Part shown: piece by piece, positions 2,603-25,835 of the stretch
Position numbering within the stretch: position 1 is the first letter of the stretch
Layout: each line of letters begins with the position of its first letter
Assembly (NCBI GenBank): GCA_031276675.1
Contig: JAISMO010000158.1
Coordinates: 1-35,380 of the forward strand
Direction: 5' to 3'
Length of the DNA stretch: 35,380 nucleotides
DNA from: Tannerella sp.
Lineage (GTDB): Bacteria > Bacteroidota > Bacteroidia > Bacteroidales > Tannerellaceae
Program-made: the position numbers and the translations under genes
The notes under the pieces: model-generated
Told to the model about the DNA's origin: nothing
The model's database searches: none
The model's input: only the letters and a program-made list of their open reading frames with translations

Positions 2603-4945
2603 ATGAAGAGCAGCGTCCTTATTTCAGTCGCCTTGCTGGGTGTTGTCCGGTTATACGGACAGGAGAAACGGGTGTCGCTGGTCGATCCGATGATCGGTAC
2701 CACCCGGATGGGGCATACGTTTCCCGGCGCCTGCGTGCCTCATGGCGCCGTCCAGTTGAGTCCCGATACGGACACGATTCCACACAATCTTAACGGTGTA
2801 TATCAAAAGGACGTTTATCGCTATTGCGCCGGTTATCAATATGACGATTCGACGATTGTCGGATTCAGCCATACGCATTTCAGCGGTACCGGCCATTCCG
2901 ATCTGGGAGACATTCTGCTGATGCCGGTCACCGGCACGCCGAAACTGAATCCCGGCACGGCCGCACAACCGGAAACGGGCTACCGTTCACGGTTCTCGCA
3001 TGACACGGAACAGGCGCAACCGGGCTATTATGAAGTCATGCTGGACGACTACAGGGTGCGGGTGCAACTGACGGCCACCGAACGGACGGGTATCCACCGC
3101 TATACGTTTCCTGCCGGCGAAAAGAAACAACTGATCCTGGATTTAATTCACGGTATCTACAACTACGACGGCAAGACGCTGTGGGCAAACGTGCGTGTCG
3201 AAAACGACACGCTGTTGACCGGCTACCGCATCACCAACGGCTGGGCGCGCGTGAACCATACCTTTTTCGCAATCTCCTTCTCGCTGCCTGTTGCGCATTA
3301 CAGGTACGAAGACCGGGAGACGCCGAAGTATCCCGGCTTCTGGCGAAAGTTTCCCGGAACGGACTTCCCCGAAATCGGCGGGCGGAAGATCGTTGCCTGT
3401 TTTGAGTTTGAGCCTTCAGCCACGCCCGAACTGGAGGTACGGGTAGCGCTTTCGGCCGTCAGCACGGCCGGCGCACTGCGCAACCTGGAGGCCGAAACGG
3501 CTGGCAAATCCTTCGAACAACTCCGCGCCGGAGCGTCGGACAAATGGGAAAAGGAACTGGCATGTATGGAGGTGGAAGGAACGGACGAACAGAAGACCAT
3601 GCTGTATACTTCTCTCTACCACGCGCTCATCCATCCTTCCCTCTACATGGACGTGGACGGGAACTACCGGGGGATTGACCACAACATTCACCGGGCCGGG
3701 GATTTCACCAACTACACGGTCTTCTCCGTCTGGGATACCTACCGGGCGCTGCATCCGCTTTTCAATCTGCTTAACCGCCGGCGGAGTCGCGACATGGTTG
3801 AATCCATGCTGGCGCACAGTGCGCAGAGCGTGCACGGGATGCTGCCGGTCTGGTCGCACATGGGGAATGAAAACTGGTGCATGATCGGCTATCATTCCGT
3901 CTCTGTCCTGGCCGACGCCATTGCCAAAGGCATTCCGGTTGACCGGGAAAGGGCGCTGAAGGCCATGCACCATACGGCGAACGTGCCCTACTACGGCGGG
4001 CTGAGCGACTATGTCCGGAAAGGTTACGTGCCGACGGACGTGAAGGACGACGGCGCTTCCATGACACTGGAATATGCCTATGACGACTGGACGATCTGCC
4101 ATACGGCGCAGCTGGCCGGACGTCCCGATCTGGCCGAAATCTACCGGCAGCGCGCCCTGAACTACCGCAATGTCTTCCATCCGTCGATGCAGTTTGTCGG
4201 CGCCAGATTGAGTGACGGCGGCTGGAAAAAGGATTTCAGCCTGCTGAGCACGCACGGTCAGGGATTCATTGAGGGCAATTCGTGGAATTATTCCTTCAGC
4301 GTGCCTCACGATGTGAACGGCCTGATCCGGCAGATGGGCGGGGAGGCGCAGTTTGTCCGGCGGCTGGATTCGCTTTTCACGATGCACCTGCCCGACGAGT
4401 TTTTTGCCGAGACCGAAGACGTCTCCAAAGAAGGAATCATGGGCAACTACGTCCACGGCAACGAGCCGAGCCATCATATCGCCTACCTGTATGCCTGGAC
4501 GTCGCAGCCCTGGAAGACACAGTACCGGGTGCGCGAGATCATGAACCGCATGTATCGCAAAGGCATCGCGGGCCTGTGCGGAAACGACGACTGCGGACAA
4601 ATGTCGGCATGGTATATTTTCTCGGCGATGGGATTCTATCCCGTCTGTCCCGGATCCGACCAGTTTGTGCTCGGTGCGCCCTGTTTCCCTTACCTCAAGG
4701 TGAATCTGGAAAACGGAAAGTCGATTGTCATCAGGGCCGACAGGGTAAGCGACCGGATGCGCTACGTGAAATCCGTCAAACTCAACGGACGGCCCTACCG
4801 GAAAGCTTTCATCACCTATGACGATCTCAGGGACGGAGCGGAACTGACGTTTGAAATGAGTGCGGCGCCGAATAAAAAACGGCTTTTCGGTGAAGACGAA
4901 AAACCGTATTCTCTTTCAGGCCATGACGATCGTTTTGACAGATAA
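2603..4945 (+). CDS. secreted GH92 family alpha-mannosidase
   Basis: A 780-residue exported glycoside hydrolase. GH92 enzymes are calcium-dependent, inverting exo-alpha-mannosidases that trim host or fungal mannose glycans. The open frame reaches back to a TTG at 2513, but the ATG at 2603 begins a signal peptide (MKSSVLISVALLGVVRLYGQ). GH92 signatures run through the protein: VDPMIGTTRMGHTFPGACVP at the start, FSVWDTYRALHPLFNLL in the middle, EGNSWNYSFSVPHDV with the likely acid glutamate near residue 557, GNEPSHHIAYLYAW, and GNDDCGQMSAWYIFSAMGF with aspartates near 662-663 that match the proposed base. No SusC/SusD pair or regulator is nearby, so it is an orphan rather than part of a polysaccharide utilisation locus. 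Exact linkage specificity cannot be read from sequence. Confidence 0.95.
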   Translation: MKSSVLISVALLGVVRLYGQEKRVSLVDPMIGTTRMGHTFPGACVPHGAVQLSPDTDTIPHNLNGVYQKDVYRYCAGYQYDDSTIVGFSHTHFSGTGHSDLGDILLMPVTGTPKLNPGTAAQPETGYRSRFSHDTEQAQPGYYEVMLDDYRVRVQLTATERTGIHRYTFPAGEKKQLILDLIHGIYNYDGKTLWANVRVENDTLLTGYRITNGWARVNHTFFAISFSLPVAHYRYEDRETPKYPGFWRKFPGTDFPEIGGRKIVACFEFEPSATPELEVRVALSAVSTAGALRNLEAETAGKSFEQLRAGASDKWEKELACMEVEGTDEQKTMLYTSLYHALIHPSLYMDVDGNYRGIDHNIHRAGDFTNYTVFSVWDTYRALHPLFNLLNRRRSRDMVESMLAHSAQSVHGMLPVWSHMGNENWCMIGYHSVSVLADAIAKGIPVDRERALKAMHHTANVPYYGGLSDYVRKGYVPTDVKDDGASMTLEYAYDDWTICHTAQLAGRPDLAEIYRQRALNYRNVFHPSMQFVGARLSDGGWKKDFSLLSTHGQGFIEGNSWNYSFSVPHDVNGLIRQMGGEAQFVRRLDSLFTMHLPDEFFAETEDVSKEGIMGNYVHGNEPSHHIAYLYAWTSQPWKTQYRVREIMNRMYRKGIAGLCGNDDCGQMSAWYIFSAMGFYPVCPGSDQFVLGAPCFPYLKVNLENGKSIVIRADRVSDRMRYVKSVKLNGRPYRKAFITYDDLRDGAELTFEMSAAPNKKRLFGEDEKPYSLSGHDDRFDR

Positions 4946-5389: not shown

Positions 5390-8122
5390 TCAGAACTCCT
5401 GACCGAGATAGAAGTGGAACTGGCCTCCGCCCTTTTCCGAACGTCCCAGCGGCGTGTCGAATCCGTAGGCCCAGTCGATTCCCATCATGCCGATCATCGG
5501 AAGGAAGATGCGTGCACCGACGCCCGCCGAACGTTTCAGGTTGAAGGGGTTAAATTCGCGGATGGTTGCCCAGGCATTGCCGCCTTCGACAAATACCAGC
5601 CCGTAGATCGTAGACGAGGGTTCCAGGATGAAGGGATAGCGCAATTCCAGCGACAGGCGGGAGTAGGCATGGGCATAGGGCACCGAGTTGTTCTGTCCGG
5701 CCAGCGAACCGTTTTCATAGCCGCGCAGGGGAACGGTTTCCGTCGCAAAATCATAGTAACTGTAACCGCTCATCCCGTCTCCACCTACGTAATAGGATTC
5801 AAACGGGGAGATTTTGTGTTTGTTGTAGTAGCCCAAAAAACCGTACTCCACACGCGACATCATGACCGGTGTCCGTTTCGGACCGTTGTTTTGCGGCAGC
5901 GGCGCCAGCGGGAAAAACAGTTTCGCCTGGAATTTCCACTTGTGGTATTCGATCCATCTGTGCTTCTCGCTGTTGTCGGTGCTCATGGATGCGTAATCCA
6001 CGCCATCCCACAGCGAATAGGGCGGGGTCACCGACAGGGAGGCCAGGAACTGGGAACCGTAACGCGTATAGAGCGGGTTGTCGATGGAATTGCGCTGCAG
6101 CGAAAGGTCGAAGCTGATTTTATTGCAGGCGCCGTCGCTGATTATAAAATACTCGTACTCTTTCATCATGTATCGCTGATAATGCAGGTTGGCCATGAGG
6201 ACGAAATAGTCGTCCGGCCAGCTCAGGCGTTTGCCGTAACCGATCGAAGTGCCGACCACCCGCATGTACTTGTCGGGGTCGTATGCGTTTTCCTGCAGGG
6301 CGCTGCCGTAGTCGCTGCCGTAACCGCTGCCGTAGCCGTAACCGTACATCATGCTCGCGTAATTACTGTATTGCCGTTGATAGTAACTGCTGTTGATACC
6401 TGTTATATTGGAGTAGAAGATGCTGGCAGAGAAATTGTTGGGTCGTTTGCCGCCAAACCAGGGATCCATGAAGGAAACGGTGTATGACTGATAATATTTT
6501 CCGCTCGTCTGGCCGCTGATGGTCAGCGTCTGACCTTCGCCCTGCGGCAAAATCCGCCGCGGGCCGTCGGGATTGAAGAGATTCTTCATGGAAAAGTTGG
6601 TGAATTTGAGACTCAGTTTCCCGAGGATACCGGTTCGTCCCCAGCCGGCGGATACTTCCACCTGATCGCTGGCCTTGGAAACCAGGTTGTAACGAATATC
6701 AACCGTTCCGTTTTCGGGATTGGGGATGGGTTCGGGATTCATGTTTTCCGGGTCAAAATGTCCCGTCTGTGCCAGTTCGCGGGCGGAACGTATGATGTCT
6801 TCCTTGCTGAACAGCTGCCCCGGCTTGGTACGCAATTCGCGGCGGACGATGTCTTCATATACCCGGTCATTTCCGCTGATCACCACTTTGCTGATGGTTG
6901 CCTGCGGTCCTTCCTGAATCCGTATCTCCAGCGAAATCGAATCGTTCTGCACATCGACTTCCACCGGGTCGGTCTCAAAGAACAAATAGCCGTTATTCAT
7001 GTAGACGTTCGCCACGGCGTCGTCGTCGCTGACCAGTCGCTCCATCAGTTTTTTCTGGTTATACACGTCGCCGCTTTTCATGTTCAGCAACGTCTCCAGC
7101 ATTTCGGACGGATACTTGGTGTTCCCTACGAATAATATATCCTTGATATAGTATTTCTGTCCTTCATCGATACGGAGGAAGATATCCACGTATTTTTCAT
7201 TGACGGTTGCAATGCTGTCCGAAATTAACACCGCGTCGCGATAACCGTATTCATTGTATTTGGCAATCAGGTTCTTCTTGTCATTGTTGTATTCTTCGGT
7301 AGTAAACTTTTTCGTGCTGAACAACTCCAGCACGCTGGTCTTCAGTCGTTTTTGCAGGTTGAATTTCTCATTGGTTTTCTTCATGGTTTTTTTCAGCACG
7401 AAATCCGACAATGCCGCATTCCCTTCGATATGAATTTCCTGAATTTTCGTCTTCAGGTTTTTGTTGATATTGATGTCGACAATCACTTCACCTTCCCTGG
7501 CCAGATTGTCATGCTGGATGATATCCACATCCACGTTTTTAAAGCCTTTGGCATCAAAGTGCTTTTTTATCAGGGCGATTGCCCGGTCGGACACGTTGGG
7601 GGTGATGGTATGGCCAACCCTCAATCCCAGTTTCGATTCCAAATCTTCCCGCTCGCTTTTTTTCACGCCGTGATAACGGATTTCAGAAATGCGGGGACGT
7701 TGCTTCAAGCGGATTTCCAGCCAGACTTGATTGTCTTTGATGCGGGTCGCTGCAATTTTCACATCGGAGAAAAGTCCCTGTTTCCAGAAACGTTTCACCG
7801 CTTCGGTGATTTCGTCGCCCGGAATTGAAATCTCATCGCCTACCGAAAGACCGGAGAAACCGATCAGTACAAAATCGTCGTAATTCTTGACTCCCGAAAC
7901 CGCAATATGGGCAATGGTATATCGTTTGGGAGTGAGCGAATAAGAAATGACCGGCACTTCTTCCGGAGGGATATCCGACGCAACCGGTGTCATGTCTTTT
8001 ACCGGAATGGTGTCCTGCTGTACCGGAACGGTATCCTGCCGCACCGGATTCATTTCCTGCGCATACCCTCCGAAAACCGTCAACGCTGTCAAGGCGATAA
8101 ATAAGCCTGTTCTTTTACACAT
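5390..8122 (-). CDS. bamA: outer membrane protein assembly factor BamA
   Basis: This is the central Omp85-family component that folds and inserts beta-barrel proteins into the outer membrane. The 910-residue protein starts at ATG 8122; a TTG six bases earlier is less likely. It has a signal peptide (MCKRTGLFIALTALTVFGGYA), a low-complexity linker rich in V, P, D and T, then POTRA repeats up to about residue 490. The C-terminal half is the barrel, with many aromatic strand segments, an insertion of Y/G/S residues (YGYGYGSGYGSDYGS) and a final phenylalanine in FHFYLGQEF as expected for a barrel signal. It is the last gene of porG-uppS-bamA, 16 bp after uppS. The skp/ompH chaperone genes that follow bamA in relatives are absent. 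Confidence 0.96.
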   Translation of the reverse strand: MCKRTGLFIALTALTVFGGYAQEMNPVRQDTVPVQQDTIPVKDMTPVASDIPPEEVPVISYSLTPKRYTIAHIAVSGVKNYDDFVLIGFSGLSVGDEISIPGDEITEAVKRFWKQGLFSDVKIAATRIKDNQVWLEIRLKQRPRISEIRYHGVKKSEREDLESKLGLRVGHTITPNVSDRAIALIKKHFDAKGFKNVDVDIIQHDNLAREGEVIVDININKNLKTKIQEIHIEGNAALSDFVLKKTMKKTNEKFNLQKRLKTSVLELFSTKKFTTEEYNNDKKNLIAKYNEYGYRDAVLISDSIATVNEKYVDIFLRIDEGQKYYIKDILFVGNTKYPSEMLETLLNMKSGDVYNQKKLMERLVSDDDAVANVYMNNGYLFFETDPVEVDVQNDSISLEIRIQEGPQATISKVVISGNDRVYEDIVRRELRTKPGQLFSKEDIIRSARELAQTGHFDPENMNPEPIPNPENGTVDIRYNLVSKASDQVEVSAGWGRTGILGKLSLKFTNFSMKNLFNPDGPRRILPQGEGQTLTISGQTSGKYYQSYTVSFMDPWFGGKRPNNFSASIFYSNITGINSSYYQRQYSNYASMMYGYGYGSGYGSDYGSALQENAYDPDKYMRVVGTSIGYGKRLSWPDDYFVLMANLHYQRYMMKEYEYFIISDGACNKISFDLSLQRNSIDNPLYTRYGSQFLASLSVTPPYSLWDGVDYASMSTDNSEKHRWIEYHKWKFQAKLFFPLAPLPQNNGPKRTPVMMSRVEYGFLGYYNKHKISPFESYYVGGDGMSGYSYYDFATETVPLRGYENGSLAGQNNSVPYAHAYSRLSLELRYPFILEPSSTIYGLVFVEGGNAWATIREFNPFNLKRSAGVGARIFLPMIGMMGIDWAYGFDTPLGRSEKGGGQFHFYLGQEF

Positions 8123-18230: not shown

Positions 18231-18286
18231 GTGCAACAGGACGGCGCGGAGGCATTTCAAAGGGTTGCTTTCACGGATCATTTTCC

Positions 18287-18447
18287 GATGCAGCACAGCA
18301 TCACATCTCGATGCAGGGTTGCATCACATCTCGATGCAGGGCTGCATCACATCTCGATGCAGGGCTGCATCGCATCTCGATGCAAGGCTGCATCACATCC
18401 CGATGCAAGGCTGCATCACATCCCGATGCAGGGCGGCGTCACACTCC
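18287..18447. repeat. 23-bp tandem array, seven units, each with a hairpin
   Basis: Seven units start at 18287, 18310, 18333, 18356, 18379, 18402 and 18425. The typical unit carries GATGCAGGGCTGCATC, a 6-bp perfect stem with a 4-nt loop, plus a 7-nt spacer close to ACATCTC. Units 2-6 keep the stem exactly, unit 1 keeps five pairs, and unit 7 has degraded. A partial eighth unit fades into GC-rich sequence. It fills most of the 303-bp gap between the TonB receptor stop at 18479 and the rfbD promoter. Confidence 0.92.
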
Positions 18448-18478: not shown

Positions 18479-20527
18479 TCAGAAGATCCATCTCGCACCC
18501 AGTTTGATTTGCCGTCCGAAGTCGGGGTATATCGGGGAAACCGTTGCGTAGCGGACGTCCGACAGGTTGAGGATCAAAGCGTATAATTCCATGCGCAGCG
18601 GCGGAACAGGGTATATGACGTGCAGGTCGGCATTGCAGTAATTCCCCATGTGGACCTCGGCGCTCAGAAAACGGTCGGTACGGTAGGAGGAAACATATTT
18701 CGCCATGAAATGAATTTCCAGCGCTTTTGGCGTGAAGGAAAGACAGGCGTTGGCAATCAGCGGAGGCTGCCTGTGGTAGCGCGTTCGGCCCGAAGGCTCC
18801 GAGCGGTACACATATTTGCAGGACACGTTGCCGAAGGCGCTGAAGCGGTTCAGCCATGTCCGGCTGCGGAAAGCCAGTTCGACGCCCCGGGTGCGCAGGT
18901 CGATGTTTTTCATGTAGTAGCGCAGGATGTTATTGCTGTCGTAATAGGGCGTGCGGGTATATTCCGAGGTGTTTTTCTGATTCAGCAGGAAGAGCGTCCA
19001 GGTGAAATGACCGGCGCCTTCCAGGTGCTGCTTCAGGCCAAGTTCAACGCCTGTCCGGTGTTCGCCCTTCATGGAGGCGACGGACGTTTTGCCCGTGTCT
19101 TCCTCCCTGACGGGGTTGCCTGCCGCATCGGTTTGCTGTTGCAGGGCCGTCCGGTCAACCGGCAGGGCGCCGCTGTTGACCACGCAGTTCAGGAGGTAAT
19201 CCGCATTCAGTTGCAGGGAAACGCCCGTGCTGACATTGATCAGCATCGGCTGCCATTCGTCGGAGACGGCGTTTACCTCACTTCCAAAACCCTGATAGGG
19301 GACGTAATAGTCATAATATTCGCGGATCAGTTTCACGCCCAGATGCGCATCCGCACGTCCGAAGGTATGCTGGTCGAGCAGCGTGGCCGAGAGGATTTTC
19401 TTTTTCGATTTCCCGTGCGCATAGTTGGCCGAAGAAGCGAACATCACCCCGGCGCGCAGGGCATTGGAAGGTGTGGGGAGGAAGGTTTGAAAAACGGCGG
19501 CCGTAACGATCGAATCCGGTTCGTCAAGCATCCGGTTGCGGACAATGGAATCCGAGAGTGTGACGACCCGTCCGGCGGAGGTGAAATGATAGCGGTCGGG
19601 ATACAGGTCCATCCGGTTCAGGATGTGGCTGAACTGCACTTCGGTGGAGGCCGTCCGGGAGGCGTGCCAGCGGAGGCGGAGGGTGGAAACGGCATAGCGC
19701 ATGGGGTCATATTCCCACAGGTCGGCGAGCTGGCTCTGGGGCGCGGCCAGCGTGTCCGCCACCGCCTGCGTGACAAAACGTGTTCCGTAAACATAGGAGG
19801 TTTCAAGATTGACTTCAAACCGGTCGTTATACCTGTAACCGATTTTCCCGTAAAAGTTCCACAGGCTTTCGCGGCTGTGGCGTCCCGCAGGGCCGTCCGT
19901 ACGGTCGTGACCGAGGGCAAAGGCATAGTGCAGGCGGTGGATGCGTCCGCCGTGCAGCAGCCCTGCGCGAAGGGTGTGGAAGGTGCCGTAATCGACTTCC
20001 GCCCGGGTGGTTGCCCTGTCGAACGTTTTTGTTTTCACGTTGACGACCCCGTTCAGCCCGCTGAATCCGAGCAGCAGGGAATGGCCGGAACGGACAATCT
20101 CGACCGACTCAATCATGCTTTCGGGCAGGAGCGAAGGCGCTTCCACCCATTCGGCCATGGGGCCTGCGCCGTTGGTGGACAGGGAGACGCCGTTGACGGC
20201 ATAGTCGGCGGCCACGTTCTGTCCGCGCAGGAGGTAGTAGTGTTTTTTCCGTCGTCCCTGGGTAGAGGCCATGCCGTTGAGCGAATACTTCAGGACGTCG
20301 AACAGTTGATGCGCCGCCGTTTTGCGGTTATCCTCCGCGGTGATGCGGGTGACGGACGTTTCCCAGGCCGGCGGTTCGGCGGTCAATACCCTGAGCGGCG
20401 AGGTGCGCCGGCGTCCCAGCACCGTCACCTCCGGCAGGGAATCGCACAGCTGCACCTGGGCCAAGGCCGTTCCGGCGTTCAGCAGCACAAGCCATCCCAG
20501 GCAGGTCTGTCGGAGCATCCTCTTCAT
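18479..20527 (-). CDS. TonB-dependent outer membrane receptor
   Basis: A 682-residue outer membrane transporter that would import a scarce ligand using TonB-ExbBD energy. A signal peptide (MKRMLRQTCLGWLVLLNAGT) is followed by a plug domain (HQLFDVLKYSLNGMAST, YYLLRGQNVAADYAVNGVSL, ESMIESVEIVRSGHS) and a barrel ending in GRQIKLGARWIF. It lacks the N-terminal carboxypeptidase-like extension of SusC proteins, so it resembles metal, heme or cobalamin receptors rather than glycan transporters. It overlaps the upstream binding-protein gene by 4 bp (ATGA) and is last in a five-gene operon. The ligand cannot be read from sequence. Confidence 0.93.
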   Translation of the reverse strand: MKRMLRQTCLGWLVLLNAGTALAQVQLCDSLPEVTVLGRRRTSPLRVLTAEPPAWETSVTRITAEDNRKTAAHQLFDVLKYSLNGMASTQGRRKKHYYLLRGQNVAADYAVNGVSLSTNGAGPMAEWVEAPSLLPESMIESVEIVRSGHSLLLGFSGLNGVVNVKTKTFDRATTRAEVDYGTFHTLRAGLLHGGRIHRLHYAFALGHDRTDGPAGRHSRESLWNFYGKIGYRYNDRFEVNLETSYVYGTRFVTQAVADTLAAPQSQLADLWEYDPMRYAVSTLRLRWHASRTASTEVQFSHILNRMDLYPDRYHFTSAGRVVTLSDSIVRNRMLDEPDSIVTAAVFQTFLPTPSNALRAGVMFASSANYAHGKSKKKILSATLLDQHTFGRADAHLGVKLIREYYDYYVPYQGFGSEVNAVSDEWQPMLINVSTGVSLQLNADYLLNCVVNSGALPVDRTALQQQTDAAGNPVREEDTGKTSVASMKGEHRTGVELGLKQHLEGAGHFTWTLFLLNQKNTSEYTRTPYYDSNNILRYYMKNIDLRTRGVELAFRSRTWLNRFSAFGNVSCKYVYRSEPSGRTRYHRQPPLIANACLSFTPKALEIHFMAKYVSSYRTDRFLSAEVHMGNYCNADLHVIYPVPPLRMELYALILNLSDVRYATVSPIYPDFGRQIKLGARWIF

Positions 20528-21594
20528 TCCCCTGCATACAGCAACGCAAGATCGCTGTCCGTTATTTCCACGTGATAAAACAGCCGGAAACAGCCTTGAA
20601 GCGCCTCATTCAGGTCAAGCGTCACCGTTTCCGGATAGAGCCGACAGGCCAGCCACAGGACGCCCGGCACGCAGTTGACGCTCGGCGGACGGTCCGTCCA
20701 GCCGAAAGGCAGCGACGGCACCTGAAAGACCCTGCCGTTCCTCACCGCGTTCATCCGTTTCCAGAGCGGATCGGTCAGGATGTGTTCCTTCGTACTCTCT
20801 TCCCTTTTCACCTGCCGCGGCAGCCCGGCTCCCGAAGGAAAGCCCGGCCAGACGAGAATCACGTCGGGATTCCACCTCCACACCTGTTCGATGGTTACGG
20901 CCGCCATGCCGTGTACGCCGCCGACCTGAACGGTTGCCACGTTGCGGGCGTGGAGGTAATCAATCACCTGACTGTGGAGCGATCCGGCCGGTTCCGTATT
21001 CAGTCCGCGGCTGCCTTCGGCGTAATAGACGGACGGACGTTTCTCTTCGGGGATTTTTCCCGTCCGTTCATGCAGGGGAATCAGGTAGCGGTCCAGAAAA
21101 TCAATGATTCGTCCGGCCGCCTCCCGGCGATGCAGCGCCTGTCCGAGAAATTCGTAGGCGCTGCGGTAATCCGCAATCCCGAATTTCACCAGCAGCACGG
21201 GGATATGCAGTTTGGTCTGCATCCGGTCGGCCGCCTGAACGGAGGAGGCGTCCAGAAAAGACCACAGGATCACGTCGGGACGCAGTTTCAGGATTTCCTC
21301 CTCGTTCGTTTCGGCCAGAGGCTTATCCCTGTAGTAGGCAGCCGAGATGTATTTCCCGGCGGCCGGCGAGACGCGAAACGTCGCATTGCAGGTCATCCCG
21401 GTATCCAGCGCAAAGGCCATAAGCGAAACAAAACGGTCGGTAAACACCCTGTTCACGGTATGCGGTATGCTCACGCGGCGCCCCGCCATGTCTGTCACTT
21501 CGCGCTGCCGCGGCCCGGCAGCCGTGCCATGAAGCGCGTGAAGCGGCAGCACACAAAGCCAAAGCCATACGCCTGTTCTCAACATCCGTTTCAT
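20524..21594 (-). CDS. periplasmic binding protein, FecB/BtuF-like
   Basis: A 356-residue solute-binding protein of the helical-backbone type used for iron chelates, heme or corrinoids. It has a signal peptide (MKRMLRTGVWLWLCVLPLHA) without a lipobox, so it should be free in the periplasm. Family features include VTDMAGRRVSIPHTVNRVF at the start of the mature protein, LKLRPDVILWSF, and WRWNPDVILVWPG with a later NGRVFQVPSLPFGW. It starts 3 bp after the lipoprotein stop and overlaps the receptor gene by 4 bp. No ABC permease or ATPase gene is present in the operon, so these must be encoded elsewhere if it works with an ABC importer. Confidence 0.9.
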   Translation of the reverse strand: MKRMLRTGVWLWLCVLPLHALHGTAAGPRQREVTDMAGRRVSIPHTVNRVFTDRFVSLMAFALDTGMTCNATFRVSPAAGKYISAAYYRDKPLAETNEEEILKLRPDVILWSFLDASSVQAADRMQTKLHIPVLLVKFGIADYRSAYEFLGQALHRREAAGRIIDFLDRYLIPLHERTGKIPEEKRPSVYYAEGSRGLNTEPAGSLHSQVIDYLHARNVATVQVGGVHGMAAVTIEQVWRWNPDVILVWPGFPSGAGLPRQVKREESTKEHILTDPLWKRMNAVRNGRVFQVPSLPFGWTDRPPSVNCVPGVLWLACRLYPETVTLDLNEALQGCFRLFYHVEITDSDLALLYAGE

Positions 21595-21597
21595 CCT

Positions 21598-22395
21598 TCA
21601 ATCCTCCGTTGCACTCATGGACCAGACCCACAAATCATGAATCCTGACCGCGCGATTGATGCCGTCGTTCAGCGGATTTTCCTTTCCGGTGAGGGAGGGC
21701 ACAAATTTCAACTGTACCTTCCGCTCGTAAATGTCTGCCGAAAAGGTTTCGCCGGCGGCCGGGTCGGCAGGAAGAAAGTCGCCGACCTTCGAAAAGGCGG
21801 TTTCGCCTTCGGCTTTCTTCCAGAGCGTAATGCCCTTTGTGTCTTCAATCCGTCCGCCGAGCGACACGGAGAAGCGTACCCGCGAAACCGAAGGCAGCGG
21901 CGAAAGGAGCATCATGGCGTCTGAGTCATGCTGTCCGCACTCATAAAACAGGAGTTGCTGCAGGGCGACATACCCGCTGCTGATCTCCGAACCGGCAGCC
22001 GGCGTACCGGCCATGACGCCGCATTCGGGATTGACGGCAAAGTCGACCAGCGTGTAGGCTACCGTCCATCCGTCGTATTCCGCTATCCGGGGCTTGCTCG
22101 GGACGTACATGACCTGGGAAGAGATCATCCGGTCCGCCTCGCAGTCCTGTCCGGTCGGCTCCGTATAGCCTTCCCGTTTCCACGACCGGAAATCTTCGTG
22201 GAAGAGGAGGGTATCACCGGAAGAAGTGCGGTCCGCGTCGGGCAGCGTCATGTAAACTTCCTCCTCATCGGGTATGCCCCTGAAGCGGTAATTGCTCTCC
22301 TGTTCGCACGAGAGGCAGAGGAGACAGAAGAGGCAAAGCCGGACAGCCGCACCCGGCGCCCCGACGCTGCGGCCTGTTGGAATTACAGGTTCCAT
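21598..22395 (-). CDS. lipoprotein of unknown function in the uptake operon
   Basis: A 265-residue lipoprotein. The frame extends to 22500 but that would overlap the TrmO-like gene, while ATG 22395 starts 13 bp after it. The hydrophobic signal ends in a lipobox (LLCLSC, cysteine 30) and the mature start EQESNY has an acidic residue at +2, a pattern often seen in surface-exposed Bacteroidetes lipoproteins. The body has LLFHEDFRSWKREG and VRFSVSLGGRIEDTKGITLW, resembling a carbohydrate-binding or concanavalin-like beta-sandwich, but I do not recognise a specific family. Its place between TrmO-like and binding-protein genes suggests a role in ligand capture with the receptor. Confidence 0.82.
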   Translation of the reverse strand: MEPVIPTGRSVGAPGAAVRLCLFCLLCLSCEQESNYRFRGIPDEEEVYMTLPDADRTSSGDTLLFHEDFRSWKREGYTEPTGQDCEADRMISSQVMYVPSKPRIAEYDGWTVAYTLVDFAVNPECGVMAGTPAAGSEISSGYVALQQLLFYECGQHDSDAMMLLSPLPSVSRVRFSVSLGGRIEDTKGITLWKKAEGETAFSKVGDFLPADPAAGETFSADIYERKVQLKFVPSLTGKENPLNDGINRAVRIHDLWVWSMSATED

Positions 22396-22408
22396 ATCCG
22401 GTCTCTTT

Positions 22409-22894
22409 TCAGGCAAACCGGCTGTCCGAACGGACGCTGCAACAGTGTGCATGGGCCGCATGTTCAAGCCAGCCGGATTTCGTGTCGGCAGGGCTGTCAT
22501 ATCCGGGATAATAGGGTTTGATGTCTATCAGCGGCGTACCGTCGAGCATGTCGGCGCCGTCGAAGGTAACGGTATCGCCCGCCGTCGAAAGGATACGCAC
22601 CACGGACAGTCCGATGTGATTCGGACGCTTGGGGACGCGGGTGGCAAACACGCCGTGCGGCTTTGTATCCATAAACGGAACCGGAAGGAGGAGGTATCCC
22701 TCCGTCCGGTGAAAGTGATACACAAGGATGATGTGCGAGAAGCCCTCCAGATCGGTCAGCCCATCGACGTAGGCCTTCTCCACCACGGCTTTTCCCGTGA
22801 AACCCGCCGCGCCCGCCGGCTGTACCGGCATGTTCTCGATCTGTCTGTGCGGCGTATGAATGATGCCTATCGGCTCAATGATAATCTGATTCAT
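22409..22894 (-). CDS. trmO: TrmO/TsaA family methyltransferase-like protein
   Basis: A 161-residue protein of the TsaA beta-barrel family. The founding member methylates N6-threonylcarbamoyladenosine at tRNA position 37 with SAM. Family motifs are clear: IEPIGIIHTPHRQIENMPVQ, GLTDLEGFSHIILVYHFHR, PFMDTKPHGVFATR and RPNHIGLSVVRI. E. coli TrmO carries RPNPIGLS and an extra C-terminal domain; this protein has histidine in place of that proline and lacks the domain. It is second in a tight operon of uptake genes, 21 bp after the surface protein and 13 bp before the lipoprotein. That context leaves open whether its substrate is tRNA, so the symbol is provisional. Confidence 0.85.
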   Translation of the reverse strand: MNQIIIEPIGIIHTPHRQIENMPVQPAGAAGFTGKAVVEKAYVDGLTDLEGFSHIILVYHFHRTEGYLLLPVPFMDTKPHGVFATRVPKRPNHIGLSVVRILSTAGDTVTFDGADMLDGTPLIDIKPYYPGYDSPADTKSGWLEHAAHAHCCSVRSDSRFA

Positions 22895-22915
22895 ATGACT
22901 GTCCAGCAGGGATGA

Positions 22916-24391
22916 TTATTTTACGAAGATTTTGACCGCAGAATCGTCCACTCGCACGATATAGATGCCCTGCGTCGCCACCGGGATGGTTTCCCTGTCC
23001 GATGCGGCGACAAGGGAGGCGGCGATGGAACCGTTGATGCGGTAAACCGTAATGAGGCTTCCGGGCGTTACGTTCCAAACCGTGACGGCGCGGCTTTCGC
23101 TCCCGACCCGCCACTCCGGCCGGCCTTCCGGCAGCCCGGCATATGTGTCGCCGCCCGGATCAAACCCTGCGATGGCCGCGCTCACCTCTTCCGCCGTGGC
23201 GTGAATATCGTACAACACTTCCCGCGCCGCGGAAAGCACGGAAGGATCCGCCTGCGCCGTGTCAAGGAGCAGGGCCAGTTCAAACTTCCGGTCTTCCGGC
23301 GCGCGATACGGATAGTGATAAACAACCCACGACAGTTCCTCGCCCGCCGCGGGCCGGAGGGCCGTCAGCCTGATGCAGGGACTGTTTTCGTCGTCGGGAG
23401 TCTCCACCGCTTCAAGCCTGTAGCCCGCCTTTTGCAGCGTGTCGACGTTGGCCGCGCCGGTGAGCGTCGTGAAATGAACGGCCGGCGTCATGGTGAAAAA
23501 ACTGTGGCTGTGGATCGTGAAATATTCCTTTGCCAGCCAGCCCCCGGGGTGATTGCTCCGGTTGCTCCGGGCCTGCAAAAAGTTCATCCCGCGCACAAGC
23601 GGAATGGACGACATCCGATAGATAACGCTTGCCGGCACGGAAACCGATCCGGTCACCCCGTTCACCCTTTCCAGCGCCAGACCGGTGGGCTGAACGCTCT
23701 GGATCGGCAGCAGATTCACCGCCCTGCCCTCAGCATCCCGAAGGGCCGTTATCCACCCGGCCGCACTGACAGCCCGCAGGGTGATTGCGCCGTTGGTCTG
23801 CGCCGTTACGGACACCGAGGGCATCGTGATGTCCAGCACGGTCGGATCCAGCCGGTTGATGCCGAACACCACTTCGCGACCGGCGTCTTCGGGCGCCAGC
23901 AGCCCCGGCAGCCTTATATCAAACTGGCTGCGCAGTTCCTCCTCCGATGCCTCCGTATGAATGACGCCGTCGAATTTGATCTGCACGTGCATCACCTGTC
24001 CGTCTTCCCTGATTTCCGACGGAACGGTTGTGGCCACAAGGCCGTTATTCGAATCCCACAGCTTGTAGCCCACAGAACGGGTGGCGTTTACGACGGCAAA
24101 ATGCCGCGTCAGCGTACCGGTGTAATTCCCGATGCCGGTAACCGTCACACGGGCAGTGCCCGCGTCCGTATGATCGCTGTAAGCCAGGGTATAGTCAACG
24201 TCCTTCACCAGCGTCAGGCCGTCCCTGCTCACCACCGGTTCAGGCCTCACCGCATATCCCGGCGTATAAAGATATTCATCCTCCATTCCGCCGATGTCAA
24301 AAAGCGCAATGTCTTCCGCCGCACCCGCCTGAACAGCCAGACACAGGGTCATGGACAGAACCGTCCATTTAAATAATCCGTACTTTTTCAT
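22916..24391 (-). CDS. surface protein with T9SS C-terminal sorting domain
   Basis: A 491-residue exported protein. Frames upstream of ATG 24391 are not protein-like; this start begins a signal peptide (MKKYGLFKWTVLSMTLCLAV) and has GGAG 7 bp before it, an unusually clear Shine-Dalgarno for this phylum. Residues of about 45-105 resemble an MBG or Ig-like domain (VKDVDYTLAYSDHTDAGTAR, then GIGNYTGTLTRHFAV). The central part is unknown. The last 70 residues fit a type A T9SS sorting domain: VTVWNVTPGSLITVYRINGS, then VATQGIYIVRVDDSAVKIFVK-like ending, which would be cleaved on export. It heads the five-gene operon with TrmO-like, lipoprotein, binding protein and receptor, so it may bind the ligand at the surface. 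Confidence 0.85.
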   Translation of the reverse strand: MKKYGLFKWTVLSMTLCLAVQAGAAEDIALFDIGGMEDEYLYTPGYAVRPEPVVSRDGLTLVKDVDYTLAYSDHTDAGTARVTVTGIGNYTGTLTRHFAVVNATRSVGYKLWDSNNGLVATTVPSEIREDGQVMHVQIKFDGVIHTEASEEELRSQFDIRLPGLLAPEDAGREVVFGINRLDPTVLDITMPSVSVTAQTNGAITLRAVSAAGWITALRDAEGRAVNLLPIQSVQPTGLALERVNGVTGSVSVPASVIYRMSSIPLVRGMNFLQARSNRSNHPGGWLAKEYFTIHSHSFFTMTPAVHFTTLTGAANVDTLQKAGYRLEAVETPDDENSPCIRLTALRPAAGEELSWVVYHYPYRAPEDRKFELALLLDTAQADPSVLSAAREVLYDIHATAEEVSAAIAGFDPGGDTYAGLPEGRPEWRVGSESRAVTVWNVTPGSLITVYRINGSIAASLVAASDRETIPVATQGIYIVRVDDSAVKIFVK

Positions 24392-24492
24392 TTTTCTCCA
24401 AATTAACTGTTTTACCTGTTTAAAAAACGTTCCGGCATCCGTTTCCGGCGCTGTTATTCCACCAGCCCGTAAACGTCCGCCCATATAAAACT

Positions 24493-24501
24493 CAAAAGAT
24501 A
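24493..24501 (-). promoter_or_regulatory. possible -7 element for the surface-protein operon
   Basis: The minus strand reads TATCTTTTG, the -7 consensus with one extra T. It would give a leader of about 95 nt before ATG 24391. It lies immediately downstream of the nested inverted repeat. Confidence 0.3.
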
Positions 24502-24502
24502 A

Positions 24503-24591
24503 CGGAATCCGCAAAAACAGCCCGGAACGCCGGAAGCCGGAAACATACGGAATCTGCTGCCGGGGCGCCCGTTCCGGCCATGCGGATTCCG
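24503..24591. repeat. nested GC-rich inverted repeat
   Basis: CGGAATCCGCA (24503-24513) is the exact complement of TGCGGATTCCG (24581-24591). Inside it, CCGGAACG (24522-24529) pairs with CGTTCCGG (24570-24577). Together they form a two-part 19-bp stem with a small internal loop and a 40-nt apical region. It may be a regulatory structure or operator for the operon downstream on the minus strand. Confidence 0.75.
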
Positions 24592-24760
24592 GCACGGGAA
24601 AAAAACCTTCCCTCCTTCTCCGGCTCAACCTCTGCCGCTGTCCCGAACATGCCGTGTATCCCTTTTCGTTTACAGTCATTCATCAAAAACCGTGCCGCCA
24701 CGCCTAACCCGAATATTTCCAGAAAGGTATGCATGACCTGCCGCGAGCATCCCCCGGCAG

Positions 24761-24783
24761 AACCGTACATTTATGTGACGGTT
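24761..24783. repeat. hairpin
   Basis: AACCGTACAT pairs with ATGTGACGGTT, with one bulged G, around a TT centre. On the plus strand a short T-run follows. No gene ends nearby, so a terminator role is unsupported. Confidence 0.5.
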
Positions 24784-24900
24784 TTCGACAGATTGTTACC
24801 GTAAGGTAGCGGCCCCGCCGTTGGTTCAGTCGGCGGTCGATGCGTTACCGGAATAGCCGCCCTGCTCCGGCGGAAAATCAGGTATCCCCAATCATTATCC

Positions 24901-24928
24901 GCTAACTGCTAACCCCTAACCGCTAATT
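24901..24928. repeat. 7-bp tandem repeat, four copies
   Basis: Consecutive heptads GCTAACT, GCTAACC, CCTAACC and GCTAATT. It precedes the 20-bp array by 32 bp. Function is unknown. Confidence 0.6.
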
Positions 24929-24960
24929 ATCAGCCACTGAAACCGGATGTAAGTCGGCGA

Positions 24961-25200
24961 AATCAGATTTAATCCGACGAGATTAAATCTAATCTGGCGA
25001 GATTAAATCTAATCTGACGAGATTAAATCTAATCTGGCGAGATTAAATCTAATCTGGCAGGATTAAATCTAATCCGGCGAGATTAAATCTAATTTGACGA
25101 GATTAAATCTAATCTGACGAAATTAAATCTAATCTGGCAGGATTAAATCTAATCTGACGAGATTAAATCTAATATGACGGAATTAAATCTAATCCGGCGG
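24961..25200. repeat. 20-bp tandem array, twelve units, each with a small hairpin
   Basis: Twelve units of exactly 20 bp in register, typically GATTAAATCTAATCTGGCGA; the first (24961) is diverged and a partial unit continues to about 25211. With the last base of the preceding unit each forms AGATTA-AATC-TAATCT, a 6-bp stem and 4-nt loop. Some variants keep pairing: at 25060-25075 the outer pair is G-C instead of A-T. The array runs right up to the stop codon of the phosphopantetheinyl transferase gene at 25212. Confidence 0.95.
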
Positions 25201-25211
25201 GATCGGATTTA

Positions 25212-25835
25212 TTACGGGAACCGGGTAAGTACAAAATCGGGAGCAATGTTGTAATGGATTTGACAGGTAGCAGACCGGGGTGTTAAAGTCTCCTTTACGG
25301 TCAGCAGGCCGTGTGTTCGGGAAAAATCACAGGCAAGGATGTGAAGGTCTTTCTGCCAGTCGGCAAAATGTTGTCCCGTCATTTTGAAGGCCGTTTCCTT
25401 GGCGCTCCAGCAGATTAACAGTTCGGTGCTTCCCGGATGCTCGCCCAGCAGACGCAGTTCCGGCTCGCTTAAAAAACGCGATTTCAGTTTTTGGATACGT
25501 TCCGAACGGTATTCTATGTCAATGCCTGCCGGATGATCCGGATGAAGCAGTACGGCAGCATAGCCCCTGGTGTGTGAAATGCTGATATGAAAGGGTGCAT
25601 CCGGCAGGCAGGGCGCTCCGCCGGCCCGATAGGCGATGCGTGTTTCGCTGCCGGTCAACTCCTTCAGCAGCATCCGGACGGCCAGCCATTCGGCTTTTCT
25701 GCTGTCCGACCGGCTGCCGTTCAGGAAGGGCAGATAGGCGTCCGGACATTCCGACAGCGCGAGCAGTTCTTCCCAGCTTTCCTCAATTTTCCAGATACCC
25801 CACAGCGGGAAAACGGATTTTTGCAGAACCGGCAT
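25212..25835 (-). CDS. 4'-phosphopantetheinyl transferase superfamily protein
   Basis: A 207-residue Sfp-type enzyme that moves phosphopantetheine from coenzyme A onto carrier proteins. The magnesium and CoA motifs are present: HISISHTRGYAAVLL (83-97), GIDIEY with aspartate 106 and glutamate 108, and WSAKETAFK with glutamate 147. It is last in an operon of ssb, gldE, gldD and this gene, starting 3 bp after gldD. No polyketide or peptide synthetase is nearby, so the target may be the fatty acid carrier or an aryl polyene or flexirubin-type pathway elsewhere. The 20-bp array begins directly after its stop. Confidence 0.92.
   Translation of the reverse strand: MPVLQKSVFPLWGIWKIEESWEELLALSECPDAYLPFLNGSRSDSRKAEWLAVRMLLKELTGSETRIAYRAGGAPCLPDAPFHISISHTRGYAAVLLHPDHPAGIDIEYRSERIQKLKSRFLSEPELRLLGEHPGSTELLICWSAKETAFKMTGQHFADWQKDLHILACDFSRTHGLLTVKETLTPRSATCQIHYNIAPDFVLTRFP

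Follow-up and report, generated by a model that had tools for sequence, protein, structure and literature searches.

The window analysed here is a stretch of 35,380 nucleotides from a Tannerella sp. genome (contig JAISMO010000158.1), and the system in question is a five-gene operon on its minus strand. The first gene (P0001, 22916..24391) encodes a secreted surface protein of 491 residues with a signal peptide, the second (P0002, 22409..22894) a single-domain TrmO-like S-adenosylmethionine methyltransferase of 161 residues, the third (P0003, 21598..22395) a lipoprotein of 265 residues, whose signal peptide and lipobox were recognised by eye, the fourth (P0004, 20524..21594) a PF01497 (Peripla_BP_2) periplasmic binding protein of 356 residues that is a relative of MolA, and the fifth (P0005, 18479..20527) a TonB-dependent receptor of 682 residues with a matched plug domain. 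A preliminary description, made from the letters of the DNA alone, had placed these five open reading frames at the same coordinates, and re-measurement gave the same spacing, i.e., 21, 13, and 3 bp and a 4-bp overlap.

The five genes and their recurrence in Bacteroidales

The functions which that description gave to genes 2, 4, and 5 were borne out by family searches: gene 2 matches TrmO_N/TIGR00104 above the cut-off (111.5 bits against 93.25), gene 4 matches Peripla_BP_2 in Pfam, and the plug of gene 5 matches PF07715 (36.8 bits, cut-off 23.9). The barrel domain of gene 5 has no Pfam match, and its N-terminus carries a TonB-box-like PEVTVLG (seen by eye). For gene 3 no Pfam or NCBIfam match was found at E ≤ 1. 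Structure prediction of the 491- and 265-residue proteins, which had been proposed as a check, suggested folds, although both models are poor: the C-terminal half of gene 3 is probably a jelly-roll-like beta sandwich (low-confidence model), and gene 1 is probably a beta-rich surface protein. Gene 1 had also been said to end in a type A sorting tail of the type IX secretion system (T9SS). The C-terminal motif is indeed conserved, but the NCBI type A model stayed below its cut-off (TIGR04183 in NCBIfam, 13.6 bits, cut-off 23); in Pfam the C-terminus corresponds to DUF6383 (28.6 bits, cut-off 23.7), and this T9SS-type tail spans nucleotides 22925-23110 on the minus strand. Homologues keep the tail, with GIYIVRV...K..V in all five aligned sequences (the window and four homologues), and the genome encodes the SprA/Sov translocon of the T9SS (TIGR04189, 2889 bits, cut-off 200). 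As only one of the four homologues in the first alignment has the repeat-like segment of about residues 37-103, the conserved core of gene 1 is taken to run from about residue 103 onward.

Recurrence was followed in 98 genomes of the family (gene-level matches counted at E ≤ 0.001) and in a wider scan, in which an alignment of nine binding proteins was searched against 84,980 named genomes and 80 of 175 relatives were kept. Binding proteins with at least 58% identity to P0004 are called class A here, and those near 40% class B. Class A comprises nine of the kept relatives (L085-L093), and in six further loci (L085-L090) the complete set of five is present in unchanged order, so that the set is not a chance assembly and the recurrence on which the preliminary description depended is confirmed. 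Two of the six are cut by a contig end, in gene 1 (L086) or gene 5 (L088), and in L087 the genes are joined by read-through; L093 holds genes 3-4-5 with no gene 1 matched, L091 gene 4 alone, and L092 a class-A gene 4 next to a class-B set. Intergenic gaps in four loci besides the window are mostly below 20 bp, with one of 124 bp and one overlap of 67 bp. The record titles of class A name Tannerella, other Bacteroidales metagenome-assembled genomes, Barb4 (L090), and MS502-39 (L089), which, judged by the isolate names, probably come from termite or wood-roach guts. Within the family sample gene 4 is matched in 13 genomes, at E < 1e-70 in seven and only more weakly in the other six, while gene 1 is matched in 26, five over the core and the remainder in the repeat or tail; in one of the five genomes with a core match (G054), near a contig end, gene 3 comes directly after gene 1 with no TrmO gene between. 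Of 295 genomes drawn from the order, four have the gene 3 family, counting the window's own and one weak match.

A surface protein with its own promoter had been mentioned as a finding that would count against a shared operon. Gene 1 stands first in L085, L087, L088, and L089, with the preceding gene on the opposite strand (L086 is truncated at this point); L090 differs in that a same-strand gene of 123 residues lies 23 bp before gene 1, which may therefore belong to a longer operon at that locus. Two irregularities were seen among these loci: open repeat-like spacers in L087 (2469-3836 and 3787-7311) fuse TrmO and lipoprotein, and binding protein and receptor, into single reading frames, and L089 has a short gene-1-like fragment (4398-4649) roughly 3 kb upstream of its intact gene 1.

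Nitrogenase and molybdenum genes around the operon

Twelve of the 98 genomes match the nifH model above cut-off, eight at 448-457 bits and four only by a divergent kind of about 400 bits; another genome (G095), in which nifH is cut by the contig end, brings those with a nif/anf-type nifH to nine. The divergent kind, as tested in G065, adjoins NifD/NifE-like proteins far below all nitrogenase cut-offs. All seven genomes with a class A or B binding protein (E < 1e-70) fall among these nine, a co-occurrence with a hypergeometric p of 3e-9 when genomes are treated as unrelated, and of 6e-8 to 8e-7 when NifH fragments or divergent NifH are added (8e-7 for all 16 genomes with any of these).

The genes are also linked physically. 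In MS502-39 (L089) nifH starts 241 bp after the operon and is followed by two small nifI-looking genes, nifD, nifK, nifE, and a nifN-like gene; nifH, nifD, nifK, and nifE score above cut-off and the nifN-like gene below (287.8 against 326.8). In Barb4 (G013/L090) the operon is flanked on one side by a class-B set, which comes with NifV-like and NifA-like genes, and on the other by a third binding-protein/receptor pair, an ATPase, and anfH-nifI1-nifI2-anfD-anfG-anfK (anfH, nifI, and anfK labelled by eye). A single 7-kb Tannerella contig (L092) holds nifH, a ModE_repress-type helix-turn-helix (HTH) gene, class-B genes, the class-A binding protein and, downstream of the latter, Mop (molbindin). 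In the window's own genome contig C10 carries nifH, a MoFe-type nifD, and a nifK-like gene; the score of this nifD (649.2 bits) lies just below the cut-off of 653.55 and is the best among all models. The alternative nitrogenases that were typed are Fe-only, i.e., anfG scored 177.3 bits (cut-off 124.7) and vnfG 94.8 (cut-off 141.7) in G013, and 177.9 and 89.9 bits, respectively, in G076.

For the binding-protein family at large, neighbourhoods were queried with the binding-protein residues alone, and molybdenum and tungsten genes were counted within 10 kb, their labels being checked on representatives. Of 43 loci, most of them proteobacterial (L121-L123, L125-L164), 26 have a gene for ModA, MOT1 (MFS_MOT1), TupA, TupB-like, Mop, or FdhA nearby (25 without counting TupB and FdhA) and 17 have none, and TrmO is near in eight; one of five archaeal or Syntrophomonadaceae loci has a molybdenum or tungsten gene. 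In a FastTree phylogeny of 78 proteins the window protein falls in class A and then joins class B (support 0.97), and both lie inside a larger group with proteobacterial proteins. The best solved relatives in a profile search with P0004 are 4pag, 4ovk and, third, HI_1472 (MolA; E 3.4e-25), the highest-ranking one with a ligand known to us; in the single-sequence comparison HI_1472 gives 5.6e-13 and other chains score higher. MolA binds molybdate and tungstate, according to the available portion of its description (PMC4031551).

The class-B sets of Bacteroidota and Chlorobi (L094-L116; Chlorobaculum, Bacteroides, Paludibacter, Capnocytophaga, and others) combine a SUMT-like methyltransferase gene (19 of 23 loci; the one representative tested scored 186 bits, below the cut-off of 198) with a TonB receptor and a PF01497 protein, often together with FecCD and an ATPase (permease nearby in 14 of 23); a ModE-like HTH gene is present in five and a TrmO-like gene in four. 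Their binding proteins are about 35-41% identical to that of the window operon, but no relative of gene 1 or gene 3 was found in these loci. Other sets, class D (L060, L061, L062, L117, and L119), join a lipoprotein and a receptor to the binding protein, and some of them add a CobW-like GTPase and a 350-residue protein of no assigned family.

Gene 2 is the sole TrmO match in the window's genome. TrmO matches were found in six of 14 close genomes, four being operon copies and two relatives of 30-33% identity, and with so few matching genomes, most of them through the operon itself, gene 2 is not a housekeeping gene here. TrmO-like proteins also lie beside genes for a TonB receptor, binding protein, permease, or ATPase in L066 (8442-9386), L067 (5450-6427), and L064 (2260-3126), which is a further sign that gene 2 is tied to metal uptake. 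In L067 the protein is fused to FmdE (Pfam), and those of L064 and L066 share the motif in alignment.

Candidate transport partners and regulatory sites

It had been noted that no permease or ATPase is included, which is true of the operon but not of the genome, where a FecCD permease is encoded on contig C26 and an ATPase on contig C160. The permease is the sole strong match in the genome (290 bits; second match 36), is 67% identical to a class-B permease, and lies directly behind a ModE-like HTH gene (TIGR00637, 83.3 bits, cut-off 98.5); the same pair occurs in G013 downstream of nif genes. The C160 ATPase is 68% identical to the ATPase near the operon in G013. Judged by these identities, both proteins are candidate partners of P0004 in trans. 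Neither ModA nor a TOBE domain was matched in the window's genome, the assembly of which is 93.7% complete.

Two candidate sites precede gene 1 on the minus strand, a ModE-box-like palindrome CGTTAT-N12-ATATGG (24481..24504, 10 of 12 positions, 90-113 bp before the gene) and a sigma-54-like -24/-12 element, CGGCACGGTTTTTGAT (24682..24697, at -306), which is weak alone and resembles the nifH promoters of these genomes. The spacing is that of the ModE consensus, CGNTAT-N12-ATANCG, as quoted in PMC545781. Exact CGTTAT-N12-ATAACG boxes number nine in 16 genomes, and occur in six of nine nif-positive genomes and in none of seven nif-minus congeners, whereas a reversed-pattern control gave two sites, both in nif-minus genomes. 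Four of the nine lie before nifH, one before nifB (above cut-off), one before gene 1 (in G054), two close to the end of a contig and without an assigned gene, and the last before another receptor/binding-protein pair in G054 (L208, box at 7488). The nifH box matches 11 of 12 positions in G054 and 8-9 of 12 in G013. The window box is the sole match with at most two mismatches in the 35 kb, at -113 as compared with -112 in G054. For the sigma-54 pattern the p-values over the region upstream of gene 1, each a single-region figure, are 0.016 in the window, 0.006 in G048, 0.008 in G054, and 0.009 in L089, and a site of this type also scores well upstream of the ModE-like gene and FecCD permease on C26. 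The third receptor/binding-protein pair (L208 3913-7459, L054 17001-18402), which in G013 adjoins the window-type operon, has a partner of 117-123 residues without family.

The ligand and its alternatives

The earlier reading of the locus as an uptake operon holds, as the gene set is conserved, recurs in six loci, and encodes TonB-dependent uptake with a dedicated binding protein. As to the ligand, the surroundings of the genes across genomes favour molybdenum (or tungsten, or a molybdenum chelate) and a link with nitrogenase over heme or corrinoid, and we consider it fairly likely that the operon serves TonB-dependent uptake of molybdenum (molybdate or tungstate, free or chelated) for nitrogenase. 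Gene 1 at the surface and lipoprotein gene 3 would then assist in capturing the ligand, gene 5 would, from what is known of its family, move it across the outer membrane with energy from TonB, and gene 4 would bind it in the periplasm and deliver it to the FecCD permease of C26 and the ATPase of C160. In this reading the TrmO-like enzyme would act on the ligand or its chelate inside, and transcription would be coupled to the nif genes by the sigma-54 promoter and the ModE-type box. A fuller version is tentative and to us somewhat less probable than not, namely a dedicated molybdenum receptor system in which the T9SS protein and a surface lipoprotein collect molybdenum in the gut or pirate molybdophores there, the TrmO-like enzyme processes the import, and ModE and sigma-54 provide the wiring.

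Several observations weigh against molybdenum as the ligand or against its proposed regulation. Two genomes (G002 and G009) have nifH and no class A or B binding protein. Molybdenum genes are found in only three of the 23 class-B loci, and a Mop or ModE gene in only one of the nine class A loci within the fetched stretch. ModA was not matched in 13 of 14 genomes tested, which include eight of the nine nif-positive ones and nif-minus relatives, and its lack is therefore not specific to nif genomes. The ModE-like proteins tested reach 78.7-83.3 bits against a family cut-off of 98.5 and are without the molybdate-binding part. An exact box precedes gene 1 in only one of seven upstream regions (G054, 12 of 12, at -112), and the anfH promoters have no good box (9 of 12 in G048, 8 of 12 in G013). 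The box of the window has a p of about 0.03 over its upstream region, a single-region figure, and in the whole window one box of 10 of 12 was seen with 1.07 expected by chance; for sigma-54-like matches the corresponding numbers are six and 4.87, and the scores before gene 1 are not significant in G061, G013, and L087. Furthermore, in G013 the operon adjoins the Fe-only nitrogenase cluster in a genome that also has ModA, and G076 combines a class-B system with Fe-only nitrogenase genes.

These last two genomes make an iron ligand possible, and import of a ferric chelate for the iron demand of nitrogenase, with the molybdenum-gene links a by-product of nif clustering, is the main rival that remains from the ligands first suggested. 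PF01497, FecCD, and TonB receptors belong mostly to iron or corrinoid systems, and gene 5 has weak matches to siderophore and B12 models of NCBIfam, all far below cut-off. We nevertheless regard iron as unlikely, as the proteobacterial relatives of the binding protein neighbour molybdenum and tungsten genes, a ModE-like HTH gene directly precedes the permease, ModE-type boxes are present, Mop lies downstream of the class-A binding protein in L092, and in the profile search MolA outranks those chains that are labelled as binding iron. Vanadium, tungsten, or a metallophore that other oxyanions also use might be carried instead of molybdate itself, these oxyanions being chemically alike, with TupA or TupB-like neighbours in some relatives and a TonB receptor that suggests a large or chelated ligand; with both typed alternative nitrogenases being Fe-only and not of the vanadium type, this seems quite improbable. 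Heme and corrinoid, which had been named beside iron, are not the best fit and are very unlikely: the match of gene 5 to the TonB-B12 model (37.2 bits, cut-off 599.7) is set against the nif and molybdenum context, no Rfam family, riboswitch or other, reaches its gathering score anywhere in the window, and a relaxed search of 24350-25300 gave 27 sub-threshold matches with no riboswitch among them. Compatible with any ligand, finally, is the idea that the products of genes 1 and 3 are mere passengers of the operon and serve adhesion or glycan binding, which we find doubtful, as genes 1 and 3 keep their order with receptor and binding protein across loci and L093, which has no match to gene 1, still groups the lipoprotein gene with genes 4 and 5.

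Molybdenum is mostly taken to enter Gram-negative diazotrophs by porin diffusion followed by ModABC. If molybdenum is indeed the ligand, it would be imported actively across the outer membrane, which would help to explain nitrogen fixation in a crowded gut. To our knowledge no TonB-dependent molybdenum system has been described, and this would then be the first one known. It would also supply a candidate ligand for a binding-protein family spanning Bacteroidota, Chlorobi, and Alphaproteobacteria, tie a single-domain TrmO-like enzyme to metal uptake, and give the TrmO-like family, elsewhere fused to FmdE, a role in molybdenum handling. The combination of TonB receptors with PF01497 proteins is already known, and our literature search found no such system directed at molybdenum and tied to nitrogenase. 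One close comparison is with MolBC-A of Haemophilus influenzae, a type II molybdate importer whose binding protein MolA ranks near the top of the solved relatives of P0004, but which is described, in the portion of the report available, without TonB receptor, surface protein, or lipoprotein, whereas permease and ATPase of the present system lie in trans (PMC4031551). Nif clusters of the same order, Bacteroidales, likewise have nif genes near molybdenum-supply genes; there modABC was reported, and the word TonB is absent from the main text as available (Inoue et al., 2015, PMC4356463). An exported molybdate binder with an outer-membrane partner is known from Pseudomonas aeruginosa, in the form of ModA secreted by the H2 type VI secretion system and IcmP, although, as far as the available text goes, the proteins and the secretion system are others and IcmP is an insulin-cleaving metalloproteinase and not a TonB receptor (PMC8602904, PMC11734730). 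The BtuB-BtuG systems for B12 in Bacteroides also join a TonB receptor to a surface lipoprotein, but differ, in the part of the account available, in genome context and accessory genes, and the window operon is without a riboswitch match (PMC10404256).

Gene-3-like lipoproteins also stand beside SusC/SusD-like pairs in one genome (G161, L214 and L215). The contig in question carries what looks by eye like a cluster of nifH-like, NifEN-like, and NifB-like genes with a sulfhydrylase-like gene, which is possibly a sulfur-salvage relative of nitrogenase. In the window itself a 20-bp tandem array of 11.2 copies (24970-25194) lies between the upstream region of the operon and the next gene, and a second array, with 6.9 copies of a 23-bp unit (18286-18443), follows immediately on the downstream side of the operon.

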